64,000 bases of DNA from Methanosarcina barkeri 3 (GTDB lineage Archaea > Halobacteriota > Methanosarcinia > Methanosarcinales > Methanosarcinaceae), in the NCBI RefSeq assembly GCF_000970305.1, contig NZ_CP009517.1, forward strand, positions 2,418,001 through 2,482,000, given 5' to 3'. The notes under the pieces were generated by a model that was not told the DNA's origin, searched no databases, and was given only the letters and a program-made list of their open reading frames with translations. Both the position numbers and the translations under genes were made by a program. Of this stretch, positions 40,899 through 45,732 are shown one piece after another (positions within the stretch are counted from its first letter, which is position 1; every line of letters starts with the position of its first letter).

Positions 40899-41078
40899 CC
40901 TTTAAGTCGCTCTTTTCACCTTTAAGTCATTCATTTCACCTTTAAGTCGCTCTTTTCACCTTTAAGTCACTATTTTCACCTTTAAGTCACTATTTTCACC
41001 TTTAAGTCACTATTTTCACCTTTAAGTCACTATTTTCACCTTTAAGTCACTATTTTCACCTTTAAGTCGCTCCTTTCA
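40899..41078. repeat. 20-bp tandem repeat, 9 copies
   Basis: Nine units of TTTAAGTCACTATTTTCACC lie in the 230-base gap between two convergent genes. The central five are identical; the outer ones read GCTCTT or ATTCAT in place of ACTATT. Confidence 0.92.
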
Positions 41079-41102: not shown

Positions 41103-41390
41103 TCAAAGAAGAGCCCAGCCGCTTCCTCCGCATACCCTGCAAGTTCCACTCTCAAAAATCCCGGAACCGTTACATAAAGGACATACTATCGCAGGCTGAG
41201 CAACGAGTACAGCACCCTGTCCCCCACAAGCTTCACAAATTTTGCCATTAACATGTCCTGCTCCGTTGCAATGAAAGCATTTTTCTGGAGCATATTCGGT
41301 GTCTATATAGGTCTGGGGTATCTTATCACCTTCGAAGGTAAGATTACAGAAATATTGTCTGAAAATTCTGATATCTATTTTCGGCTTTAT
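41103..41390 (-). CDS. Small DnaJ-type zinc-finger protein without canonical start
   Basis: On the minus strand an open frame of about 95 codons ends at the TGA at 41103-41105. It encodes four CxxCxGxG motifs in series: CFHCNGAG, CEACGGQG, CPLCNGSG and CRVCGGSG. That is the zinc-binding arrangement of the DnaJ central domain, with no J domain. The upstream part reads KPKIDIRIFRQYFCNLTFEG. A TAA lies just before it, and no ATG, GTG or TTG is in frame. An ATA at 41388-41390 is the natural first codon. Either a rare start is used, the start was mutated, or the gene is dying. Zinc binding and a chaperone-like or RNA-linked role are inferred. Confidence 0.7.
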   Translation of the reverse strand: MKPKIDIRIFRQYFCNLTFEGDKIPQTYIDTEYAPEKCFHCNGAGHVNGKICEACGGQGAVLVAQPAIVCPLCNGSGIFESGTCRVCGGSGWALL

Positions 41391-41883
41391 GAGTTAAAAG
41401 AGCTTTCAAAAAGATAAAAAGGAAAAGATTATAACTTAATTACCGGCTTTTCATTTCTTTTAAGATCCATAGACCTTCTAGTTATCATTGTCAAAGTGTT
41501 CATAAATGCTTTAAATTGCTATAAAAATTTGATTCTTAATCTTAATTGAAAATTTTCCCTATAAATTTCGCTTTTTTACTTGCCAGTTCAAGCAATAACT
41601 TTCTTCAAAGAAAGAGATATTATCCGATATTTCAACTGATATGCTAGCACAATACCCTTCAATATAAAAGAATAATTTTCCAAAAAAATCTTCCCGTTTC
41701 TGTCCCTTCTTTATAATATTTATCAATATATCTCCACTTAATAACATAAAATATTACTTTTAGTGATTCCGGTAGTTTTAAGTAACATCAAAAAAATAAT
41801 ATTAATTAGGGAGGGGTTTTAGAGCTGTGTCTAGGGGCGCAAGCTTTGGGACGGTTGTCTCCTTAAATTTAGGGAGTTGAAAT

Positions 41884-42687
41884 ATGGCAAATAGGGATAA
41901 TCTGGATTTTTTGTCAGCAAGCACAATAAAAGGAGATAAGGTCGTCAATAGGGAAGGAGAAGATCTTGGGAAAATTGAAGAATTAATGATCGATCTCCAT
42001 GATGGAAGAATAGGATACGTCGTTCTTTCTTTTGGTGGATTTCTTGGTCTGGGTGATAAGCTGTTCGCCATTCCCTGGCAGGCTTTTAAACTGAGAACAC
42101 ACGAACATGCCTTTTTACTTGATATTCCTAAAGAGACTCTTAAAAAGGCAGAAGGGTTTGATAAAGACAACTGGCCTGTAACTTCACATGAGTGGCTTTC
42201 CACTGTATATGGCTATTATGGGTATCAACCTTACTGGCAGACAGGAGTGTCTGAAGAAGCTGAATCACAAAGGATGGCCAGGACAAGAGGCACATCTTCA
42301 GAGAGAGAAAATCCAGATTTCTTGTCTGCAGGCACGCTAAAAGGGGATAAGGTCGTCAATGCAGACGGAGAGGATATCGGAAAGATTGAAGAATTCATGA
42401 TTGATCTTACAGATGGAAGAATAGCGTATGTCGTCTTGTCTTTTGGCGGATTCCTGGGCCTGGGTGATAAACTATTTGGTATACCCTGGCAGGCTTTTAC
42501 ACTAATGCCACACGAACACGCTTTCTTACTTGATGTTCCCAAGGACGTCCTGGAAAAAGCAGAAGGCTTTGATAAAAATAACTGGCCTGTAACTAATCGT
42601 GAGTGGCTTGCTACTGTGTACAGTTACTACGGATATCAGCCTTACTGGCAGACACAAAGAATAGAGAGCCGTCCGGGCAATATCTGA
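41884..42687 (+). CDS. Double PRC-barrel protein (gene 1 of 3)
   Basis: This is a 267-residue soluble protein made of two PRC-barrel modules (about 7-115 and 140-250). Each follows the pattern NxDFLSAxTxKGDKVVNxxG, then GKIEELMIDLxDG, FGGFLGLGDKLFAIPWQAF, HEHAFLLDIPK and KAEGFDKDNWP with a YYGYQPYWQ end. PRC barrels occur in photosynthetic reaction centre H subunits and ribosome maturation factor RimM; those of methanogens have no known role. GGGAG lies upstream of the ATG. It begins a three-gene tandem cluster. Confidence 0.9.
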   Translation: MANRDNLDFLSASTIKGDKVVNREGEDLGKIEELMIDLHDGRIGYVVLSFGGFLGLGDKLFAIPWQAFKLRTHEHAFLLDIPKETLKKAEGFDKDNWPVTSHEWLSTVYGYYGYQPYWQTGVSEEAESQRMARTRGTSSERENPDFLSAGTLKGDKVVNADGEDIGKIEEFMIDLTDGRIAYVVLSFGGFLGLGDKLFGIPWQAFTLMPHEHAFLLDVPKDVLEKAEGFDKNNWPVTNREWLATVYSYYGYQPYWQTQRIESRPGNI

Positions 42688-42825
42688 ACCTTAATAATCA
42701 TAGATACAGGTATAAGTACTGGCAAATAGGGGGTTGGAACTAACTTAATCAGGAGAGAAATTTGTAATAGTTCTTGGAGTCCAGGCTTTAAAAATACTTA
42801 TCTCTTTAGTTTGGGGAGCTAGAAT

Positions 42826-43620
42826 ATGGTAGATAGAGATGATCCGGATTTTTTGTCAGAAGGTGAGCTAAAAGGTAATAAGGTAGTCAATAAAACTAGA
42901 GAAGATATTGGAAGGATTGAAAAATTAATGATTGATCTTGCAGACGGAAGAATAGCATATGCCGTATTGTCTTTTGGTGAAATCCTGGATAAGGGAAATA
43001 AACTGTTTGCTATTCCCTGGGAGGCTCTTACACCAAAAATACATGAGCATGCTTTCATTCTCGATATCTCTGGTGAGGTTCTGGAAAAAGCCGAAGATTT
43101 CGATAAGAATAGATTGCCTTTAACCCGAGATGAACTATCCGGAGTCTACACTTATTATGGACATCTGCCTTACTGGCAAACTGTAGTGGCAAAACAAGCC
43201 GGATTGCCTGGTGAGACCGAATCGGAAAGAATTGCTAGAATGAGAAGAACATCGGTTAGAAAATATCCAGATTTTTTACCGGCAGACACAATAAAAGGAG
43301 AAAAAGTTGTCAGTATCGCTGGAGAGAATCTTGGAAAGATTGAAGAGTTAATAATTGACCTCCAGGCTGGAAGAGTGGCATATTCCATCCTTTCCTTCGG
43401 TGAGTTTTCGGATATGGGCGGTAAGTTTTTTGCTATCCCCTGGCAGGCTCTTCAAGCAAAATTTCAAGAACACGCCTTCTTACTTAATATTCCTAAGTAT
43501 ACTCTTGAAAAAGCAGAAGGCTTTGATAAAGATAACTGGCCCGTAACCACCCGTGAGTGGCTTTCCACTGTGTATAGCTACTATGAGTACGAGCCTTACT
43601 GGCAGATGCCGAAATTATAA
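42826..43620 (+). CDS. Double PRC-barrel protein (gene 2 of 3)
   Basis: This 264-residue protein has two PRC-barrel modules of the same plan as its neighbours, but more diverged. FGEILDKGNKLFAIPWEAL and FGEFSDMGGKFFAIPWQAL replace the GGFLGLGDK core. The linker carries SERIARMRRTSVRKYPD, matching the SQRMARTRGTSSERENPD linkers in the other two genes. GGGGAG lies upstream of the ATG. It is 138 bases after gene 1, which suggests separate duplication units rather than a tightly packed operon. Confidence 0.9.
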   Translation: MVDRDDPDFLSEGELKGNKVVNKTREDIGRIEKLMIDLADGRIAYAVLSFGEILDKGNKLFAIPWEALTPKIHEHAFILDISGEVLEKAEDFDKNRLPLTRDELSGVYTYYGHLPYWQTVVAKQAGLPGETESERIARMRRTSVRKYPDFLPADTIKGEKVVSIAGENLGKIEELIIDLQAGRVAYSILSFGEFSDMGGKFFAIPWQALQAKFQEHAFLLNIPKYTLEKAEGFDKDNWPVTTREWLSTVYSYYEYEPYWQMPKL

Positions 43621-43788
43621 AGCCGGTCTCAGTTAATGTGTCTTAATCTTGATCTGGCAGGCAGACATATGTATAAATCCTGCTAGAAGAAGGGATGCTT
43701 AAATAAATTTATGGGGAAGAAGTTTGAAGTTATGCATGGAGTGAAGGTATTTAAAATGTAAATTTTCTAAAAACTGGGGGTTGGAAAT

Positions 43789-45732
43789 ATGGCAGATCGA
43801 AATAATCCAGATTTTTTGTCAGCAAGCACAATAAAAGGAGATAAGATTGTCAATGAAGCTGGGGATGACCTTGGAAAGATTGAAGAATTAATGATTGATC
43901 TTCGCGACGGAAGGCTAGCGTATGTTGTAATGTCTTTTGGAGGATTCCTGGGTCTGGGCGATAAATTGTTTGCTATTCCCTGGCAAGCATTTAGATTAAA
44001 ACTTCACGATCACGCCTTCATTCTTGATGTTCCCAAGGATGTTCTGGAAAAGGCAGAAGGCTTTGACAAAGACAACTGGCCTATCACCTCCCGTGAATGG
44101 CTTTCCACCGTATACAGCTATTATGGATACCAGCCTTACTGGCAGCCAAGAGTACCTGAAGAAATCGAATCACAAAGGATGGCCAGGACAAGAGGCACAT
44201 CTTCAGAGAGAGAAAATCCAGATTTCTTGTCCGCAGACACGCTAAAAGGGGACAAAGTTATCGATAAATCTGGAAAGGATACCGGGAAGATTGAAGAGTT
44301 TATGATTGATCTCCAGGATGGAAAAGTAGGGTACGTTGTAGTCTCACATGGTGGATTTCTGGGTATAGGCAATAAATTATTTGCTCTTCCCTGGGAGGCT
44401 CTTTCACTTAGACTGCATGAGCATGCTTTCGCTCTCAATGTGTCTAATGAGACTTTCGACAAAGCAGAGGGCTTTGACAAGGACAACTGGCCTTTGACTC
44501 GTGAGGAGCTCTCCAGAACCTACAGCTACTATGGGTATCAACCTTACTGGCAGACAGGAATGGCAACACAGGCAGCAGGAGTCTCGGCAGCAATGCCAGC
44601 TGAGAGCGAACCTGAACGGATGGCCAGAATGGAAAGAGAAGGACAGGCGCTACCGGTAGGAGCGGAAGAAGAGAGAAAGACGCAGCAAGAAAGAGAAAGG
44701 CTTGAAGAGTTAAGGAGAACACAGGAAGAAAAAATTTCCCAGCTAGAAAAACAGCAGACAAAAGCCCAGAAACAGGCAGATACCGAAAGGGAAAGGCTAG
44801 CACGTCTGGAAAGAGAGCGGATTGAGGCTGAGAGGCAGGCACAGGCTGAAAAACAAAGGTTAGTACAGCTGGAAAAAGAGTTACAGGAGGCAAGAAGACA
44901 GGAAAAAATGGAAGCTGTATCCCGTCTTGAAGAAGAGTTGAAATCAGTACAGATACAGGAGGGAACCCGCCGAGATAGACTGGCTCAACTGGAAAGAGAG
45001 TGTACGGAGGCTCAGAGACAGGCCGAAACCGAGAGGCAGAAACTGGCACAACTGGAAAAAGAACGTACTGAAGTAGAAAGTCAGGCCAAGAAAGAGAGAG
45101 AAAGGCTGGCACAAATGGAGAGAGAGCGGGTAGAAGCTGAGACTCTAGCCCAGACGAGAGTTATGGCAGGTAGAGAAATGCCTGACTTTTTATCAGCAAG
45201 TACGATAAAAACAGATAGAGTTGTCAATTCGGCTGGAGAGGATATTGGAAGGATCGAAGAACTAATGGTTGACCTCGAAAACGGTAAAATAGCATATGCT
45301 GTGCTTTCCTTTGGCGGATTTCTGGGCATGGCCGACAAGTTCTTTGCAATTCCCTGGCAGGCTTTTACATCGAGGCCGCATGAGCATGCCTTCTTACTTG
45401 ATATTCCCAGGGATGTTCTGGAAAAGGCAGAAGGCTTTGACAAGGACAACTGGCCATTAACTCGTGAGGAGCTCTCCAGAACCTACACCTATTATGGATA
45501 CCAGCCTTACTGGCAGACAGGCGTAGCTACAGGAATGTCTAGAGAAACCCAGCCACAGAGGACAACTAGCACTCAAAGTGAAAGACCCCTGGAGACAGCA
45601 GAGGAACTAATAGCACGGCAGGAAAAAGAACGGATAGAAAAACTGGAAAAGACCGAAACCAATGAAGAGAGACTTGAGCGGTTGGAAAGAGAAAAAGAGG
45701 TGGCAGAAAGGCGGGAACGCAAATATCATTGA
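43789..45732 (+). CDS. Triple PRC-barrel protein with long coiled coil (gene 3 of 3)
   Basis: This is a 647-residue protein. Two PRC-barrel modules (about 5-115 and 145-255) are followed by a highly charged coiled coil (about 285-460, repeats of the type ERxRLAQLERERxEAE). A third PRC barrel (about 463-575) follows, then a second short coiled coil (about 605-647, rich in E, R and K). No membrane segment is seen. The coiled coil implies an elongated oligomer displaying barrels at both ends. GGGGGTTGG precedes the ATG. A scaffold role is inferred from layout only. Confidence 0.9.
   Translation: MADRNNPDFLSASTIKGDKIVNEAGDDLGKIEELMIDLRDGRLAYVVMSFGGFLGLGDKLFAIPWQAFRLKLHDHAFILDVPKDVLEKAEGFDKDNWPITSREWLSTVYSYYGYQPYWQPRVPEEIESQRMARTRGTSSERENPDFLSADTLKGDKVIDKSGKDTGKIEEFMIDLQDGKVGYVVVSHGGFLGIGNKLFALPWEALSLRLHEHAFALNVSNETFDKAEGFDKDNWPLTREELSRTYSYYGYQPYWQTGMATQAAGVSAAMPAESEPERMARMEREGQALPVGAEEERKTQQERERLEELRRTQEEKISQLEKQQTKAQKQADTERERLARLERERIEAERQAQAEKQRLVQLEKELQEARRQEKMEAVSRLEEELKSVQIQEGTRRDRLAQLERECTEAQRQAETERQKLAQLEKERTEVESQAKKERERLAQMERERVEAETLAQTRVMAGREMPDFLSASTIKTDRVVNSAGEDIGRIEELMVDLENGKIAYAVLSFGGFLGMADKFFAIPWQAFTSRPHEHAFLLDIPRDVLEKAEGFDKDNWPLTREELSRTYTYYGYQPYWQTGVATGMSRETQPQRTTSTQSERPLETAEELIARQEKERIEKLEKTETNEERLERLEREKEVAERRERKYH

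Follow-up and report, generated by a model that had tools for sequence, protein, structure and literature searches.

The window analysed here is a stretch of 64,000 nucleotides from a 4.56-Mb Methanosarcina genome, and the locus in question is a reading frame on its minus strand at 41390–41103. The translation of this frame (IKPKIDIRIF...SGWALL*) contains four CxxCxGxG motifs and no internal stop, and direct reading from the TAA upstream of it to its closing TGA finds no in-frame ATG, GTG or TTG. The earlier note on this DNA had described exactly such an open frame, devoid of every usual start codon, and had read it as the gene for a DnaJ-type zinc protein with four motifs; translation and frame reading bear out the former, and the latter holds as well. 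Protein searches returned matches in 28 of 31 Methanosarcina genomes, including that of the window, with E values down to 1e-62 in sister species and weaker matches in further genera of the order. Judged from these sequences, the four-motif frame is not a chance ORF.

The gene itself is shorter than the frame. Alignment of the 28 orthologues, which come from Methanosarcina and close kin and cover all 72 columns, places the conserved ORF at 41321–41103 (–), 72 codons from ATA to TGA, whose predicted product includes the stretch PQTYIDTEYAPEK. The extent of 41103–41390 proposed before therefore holds as an open frame but not as a gene, since comparison with orthologues shows its first 23 codons to be 5′ leader (41322–41390, –) rather than protein, with in-frame stops in relatives. 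All of the orthologues start at the codon equivalent to 41321–41319 (–), 23 codons further in, where they begin with MLxTYIDTEYAPEKC directly after a conserved Shine-Dalgarno sequence, and none begins with the MKPKIDIRIF named in the note. This start codon is ATG in 24 genomes, GTG in one (G002) and ATA in three, namely the window genome (G000), M. spelaei MC-15 (G016) and the metagenome-assembled genome UBA11020 (G020), all of which belong to one lineage. In G003 the ATG stands at the equivalent place and is followed by a gap of two codons, and in G011 and G209, the latter from another genus, ATG comes directly after AGGTGAT or AGGTGGT.

The idea that translation begins at an ATA is thus retained as likely, but the site moves from 41388 to 41321–41319. 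We rejected the ATA at 41388 as a start: codons 1–23 of the long frame are unconserved as protein and are cut by stops in relatives, and in M. spelaei, itself an ATA carrier, the frame is broken by a TGA eight codons ahead of the start, between the equivalent of 41388 and the real site. An upstream frameshift or indel that would restore a normal start was also looked for, and no such upstream reading exists in any orthologue. Downstream of the ATA at 41321 there is no usual start codon in frame, so that orthology allows no in-frame ATG, GTG or TTG at all; with the upstream extension excluded as well, the start must lie at the ATA or in its immediate vicinity. A sequencing error at this codon is very unlikely, because the ATA occurs in three independently assembled genomes in which the Shine-Dalgarno sequence is kept. 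The ATA carriers also have in common a change of codon 2 from CTC to CCC, which creates a CCCC run directly after the ATA (41316–41319, –).

The Shine-Dalgarno sequence AGGTGAT occupies 41325–41331 (–), within the stretch GAAGGTGATAAG just before the start, and is complementary to the ATCACCT contained in GGATCACCTCCT, which each of the three 16S rRNA copies carries at its 3′ end. It is separated from the ATA by a gap of 3 nt (7 nt from the second G), a strong element at the correct spacing, and is unchanged among the three ATA carriers. Further upstream, TTATAA at 41429–41434 (–) sits in a strongly conserved block of the alignment, TTATAAYCTTTTCC...TATCTTTTTG, and is kept in the ATA carriers; it is the probable archaeal TATA box of the gene. 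This leader and promoter block (41400–41440, –) is conserved across the genus beyond what is ordinary for noncoding DNA. A sigma-70 promoter scan, not relevant to an archaeon, stayed at chance level.

The surroundings of the gene indicate no pathway. Its neighbours encode PRC-barrel proteins and a DUF362 4Fe-4S protein, and one more ORF matches TackOD1 weakly. The PRC-barrel ORFs, which have repeated domains and of which Pfam confirmed one, form a run between the zinc gene and the DUF362 Fe-S gene (41884–45732, +); G027, G030 and G003 instead have, immediately upstream of the zinc gene, sequence that resembles the end of the DUF362 gene. Just downstream of the zinc gene, at 40899–41068, there is a tandem array of 8.5 copies of the 20-bp unit CCTTTAAGTCACTATTTTCA. 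M. spelaei, UBA11020 and G013 lack 140–161 bases of this interval and have a shorter array or none.

The encoded protein is built of two pairs of CxxCxGxG motifs, pair 1 at 41226–41277 (–) and pair 2 at 41118–41181 (–), the last motif reading CxxCGGSG, around an invariant VLVAQP stretch. Mean column identity over the 28 sequences is 85%, and all 16 motif cysteine and glycine columns are invariant. Pfam and PDB profiles of the DnaJ central domain and of anti-TRAP are matched, in every case below the family cut-off. The DnaJ central zinc domain (PF00684, 1exk) has the same series of four CxxCxGxG-type motifs and its profile is matched over the whole domain (positions 1–65 of 65, E 7e-6), at 26.6 bits, below the cut-off of 32.7. 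Unlike a complete DnaJ (Hsp40), the protein has neither client-binding domains nor a J domain with its HPD motif, for which 72 residues leave no room and for which Pfam gives no match; relatives such as G027 have a full-length DnaJ-sized match separate from the zinc gene. Anti-TRAP (RtpA; PF15777, 2bx9, 3lcz) is likewise a short zinc protein in which cysteine pairs are followed by VILTAQ where ours has VLVAQ, but it has two motifs rather than four and aligns with the first half only, at 27.5 bits against a cut-off of 32 in Pfam and 40.6 against 65 in NCBIfam, so that no whole-protein match reaches the curated cut-off. Stand-alone zinc-finger chaperones of the BSD2 / ZnJ2 type (PMC5818400) likewise have their DnaJ-like zinc finger in a protein of its own; they are plastid proteins and the likeness is one of layout alone. 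An AlphaFold2 model from the 28-row alignment had a mean pLDDT of 53. By analogy with the DnaJ zinc domain the protein probably binds two zinc ions, and our guess at its role is a small protein-binding or redox zinc factor.

Further AUH starts (ATA, ATC or ATT) were sought in the window genome by a screen of DNA patterns and short stretches based on the Shine-Dalgarno sequence. All 52 sites of the form AGGTGAT-N2-5-ATA were inspected for ORFs, and two were convincing: the zinc gene and an ORF at G000:C1:4423428, outside the window. The 38 inspected sites of AGGTGAT-N3-4-ATC/ATT gave no further convincing case, nor did the first 30 of the 81 sites of GGAGGT-N4-6-ATA, a pattern that is not enriched (97 sites for the control pattern). 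The second ORF encodes a hexulose-6-phosphate synthase fusion protein (Hps/RraA-type) of 426 residues, the first 191 of which match the NCBIfam model of bifunctional hexulose-6-phosphate synthase / ribonuclease regulator from model position 3. It is coding, as variation concentrates at third codon positions (136 against 41 and 17 at the other two). In 29 Methanosarcina genomes the first codon after AGGTGAT is ATA in 15 and ATC in 12, which makes 27 of 29, and ATG in one (G027), and in G008 a missing codon leaves ATT. Genomes that are M. mazei-like have ATC or ATG here. In M. barkeri-like genomes a TGA closes the upstream frame only four codons before the start; the first conserved usual start is an ATG at codon 44, and a TTG at codon 14 is found in only 12 of the 29. 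Outside the genus, the codon that follows AGGTGAT or AGGTGGT is ATA in G209, G033 and G227, ATC in G031, G034 and G035, and ATT in G036, and some other genomes have an upstream ATG instead. Because the starts of this gene are ATA, ATC or ATT across so many genomes, this family appears to make natural use of AUH starts behind AGGTGAT.

We hold it to be highly probable that the locus is a functional gene for a stand-alone 72-residue zinc protein of DnaJ type, in which AUA replaced the AUG start in an ancestor shared by the window species, M. spelaei and UBA11020, and whose translation most likely still begins at that codon, given that the Shine-Dalgarno and the protein sequence remain intact despite the ATA. 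Translation would probably be weak and would depend on the strong Shine-Dalgarno. The 30S subunit would be anchored by a Shine-Dalgarno helix of seven base pairs, which would place the initiator Met-tRNA over the AUA, where A and U can pair and only the third base is mismatched; the product would then be a protein with Met as first residue, made at reduced yield. A reduced yield is to be expected because aIF1 destabilises non-AUG complexes in archaea and counter-selects such starts (PMC6237735), a fact that itself counts against AUA initiation. So does an E. coli reporter in which AUA gave at most about 1% of AUG, as cited in PMC12864459.

Bacterial precedents are on the other side. In Staphylococcus aureus, infC, ccpN and citZ have AUA starts with an extended Shine-Dalgarno that reach about 10–30% of AUG in reporters (PMC13009471), and in those genes a long SD–anti-SD helix directs the start, as we propose for the zinc gene. 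Those cases are IF3-based and were shown by ribosome mapping and reporters, whereas the present gene belongs to the archaeal aIF1/aIF2 system and its start is deduced from comparison. A natural change of ATG to ATA in E. coli rpoS still allowed the protein to be made, up to 5-fold less (PMC12864459), as we suppose for the zinc gene; the rpoS change was found in a laboratory isolate, while the ATA of the zinc gene is fixed across species.

The most serious alternative is a recent pseudogene, already raised in the earlier note, in which the start disappeared in the three species' ancestor and the rest has yet to decay. Loss of the start codon is a classic inactivating change, and the branch that acquired the ATA also acquired three substitutions, L2P, D37A and N58S, before the three-way split. 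At D37 the other sequences have Asp or Asn with a single exception, and the three changes are compatible with mild relaxation. What has happened since the split speaks against decay. The ATA carriers differ from each other, by pair, at 3, 3 and 4 of the 219 nt of the CDS (1.4–1.8%), compared with 5.5–11.0% in the upstream noncoding DNA (41779–41450) and 5.8–13.0% in a 3′ noncoding stretch. By pair, one-sided Fisher tests give p = 9e-5, 3e-6 and 0.02 against the upstream DNA and 0.02, 2e-4 and 0.10 against the downstream DNA. The CDS is thus 3 to 9 times less diverged than its flanks and no more so than an intact neighbouring ORF, and none of the three genomes has a stop, an indel or a lost cysteine in it, which argues against a pseudogene, as do the unchanged Shine-Dalgarno and the other AUA and AUC starts retained in the same genomes. 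Between the window and M. spelaei the three codon changes are all synonymous and leave the protein identical; in the UBA11020 protein two residues differ, neither of them a cysteine or glycine of the motifs. Since few changes separate the carriers, a test at the codon level is weak by itself (P about 0.03–0.14). Taken together the comparisons favour a gene under continued constraint, and we regard the pseudogene as improbable.

Initiation elsewhere is a much poorer candidate. Translation might begin at the GTG that overlaps the Shine-Dalgarno in frame +1 and slip by –1 on the CCCC of codon 2, a run that adjoins the ATA precisely in the carriers, or it might begin at a near-cognate codon close to the ATA. 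We consider this very unlikely: the GTG falls within the Shine-Dalgarno and lacks one of its own, a canonical heptameric slip site is absent, and the ATA stands exactly where relatives have ATG. That the sequence is kept for some non-translational role, for instance as a regulatory RNA, has a partly conserved 5′ leader in its favour and is the least credible of all, as the region has no Rfam match, the folding of leader and start region is no better than that of shuffled sequences (z 0.08) and the changes between the window and M. spelaei are synonymous.

In the open-access literature searched we found no archaeal AUA start, and few bacterial genes with one are known. A survey covering bacteria and archaea, with 61,358 ancestral AUG starts, reported switches to GUG, UUG, CUG (two) and AUU (one) (PMC5622118). 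If initiation at the AUA of the zinc gene is real, an AUG-to-AUA switch would have become fixed in a conserved gene of an archaeon, beside a genus-wide AUA/AUC start in the gene of a core enzyme. Archaeal initiation would then tolerate a mismatch at the third base in natural genes when the Shine-Dalgarno is strong, and gene finders restricted to ATG, GTG and TTG would miss or truncate such genes; for the zinc gene, absence from automated gene lists is to be expected, as the earlier note had said. Methanosarcina is well suited to testing AUA starts, since both genetics and ribosome profiling exist for it, the latter including Ribo-seq data from M. mazei (PMC11456600). More speculatively, and as a proposal that we advance with considerable doubt, the Methanosarcinaceae may keep AUA, AUC and AUU behind AGGTGAT as deliberate weak starts of a few genes, the Hps/RraA fusion throughout the family and the zinc protein in one lineage, whose expression would be tuned or gated by the stringency of aIF1, an archaeal counterpart of the infC-type AUU/AUA control of bacteria.
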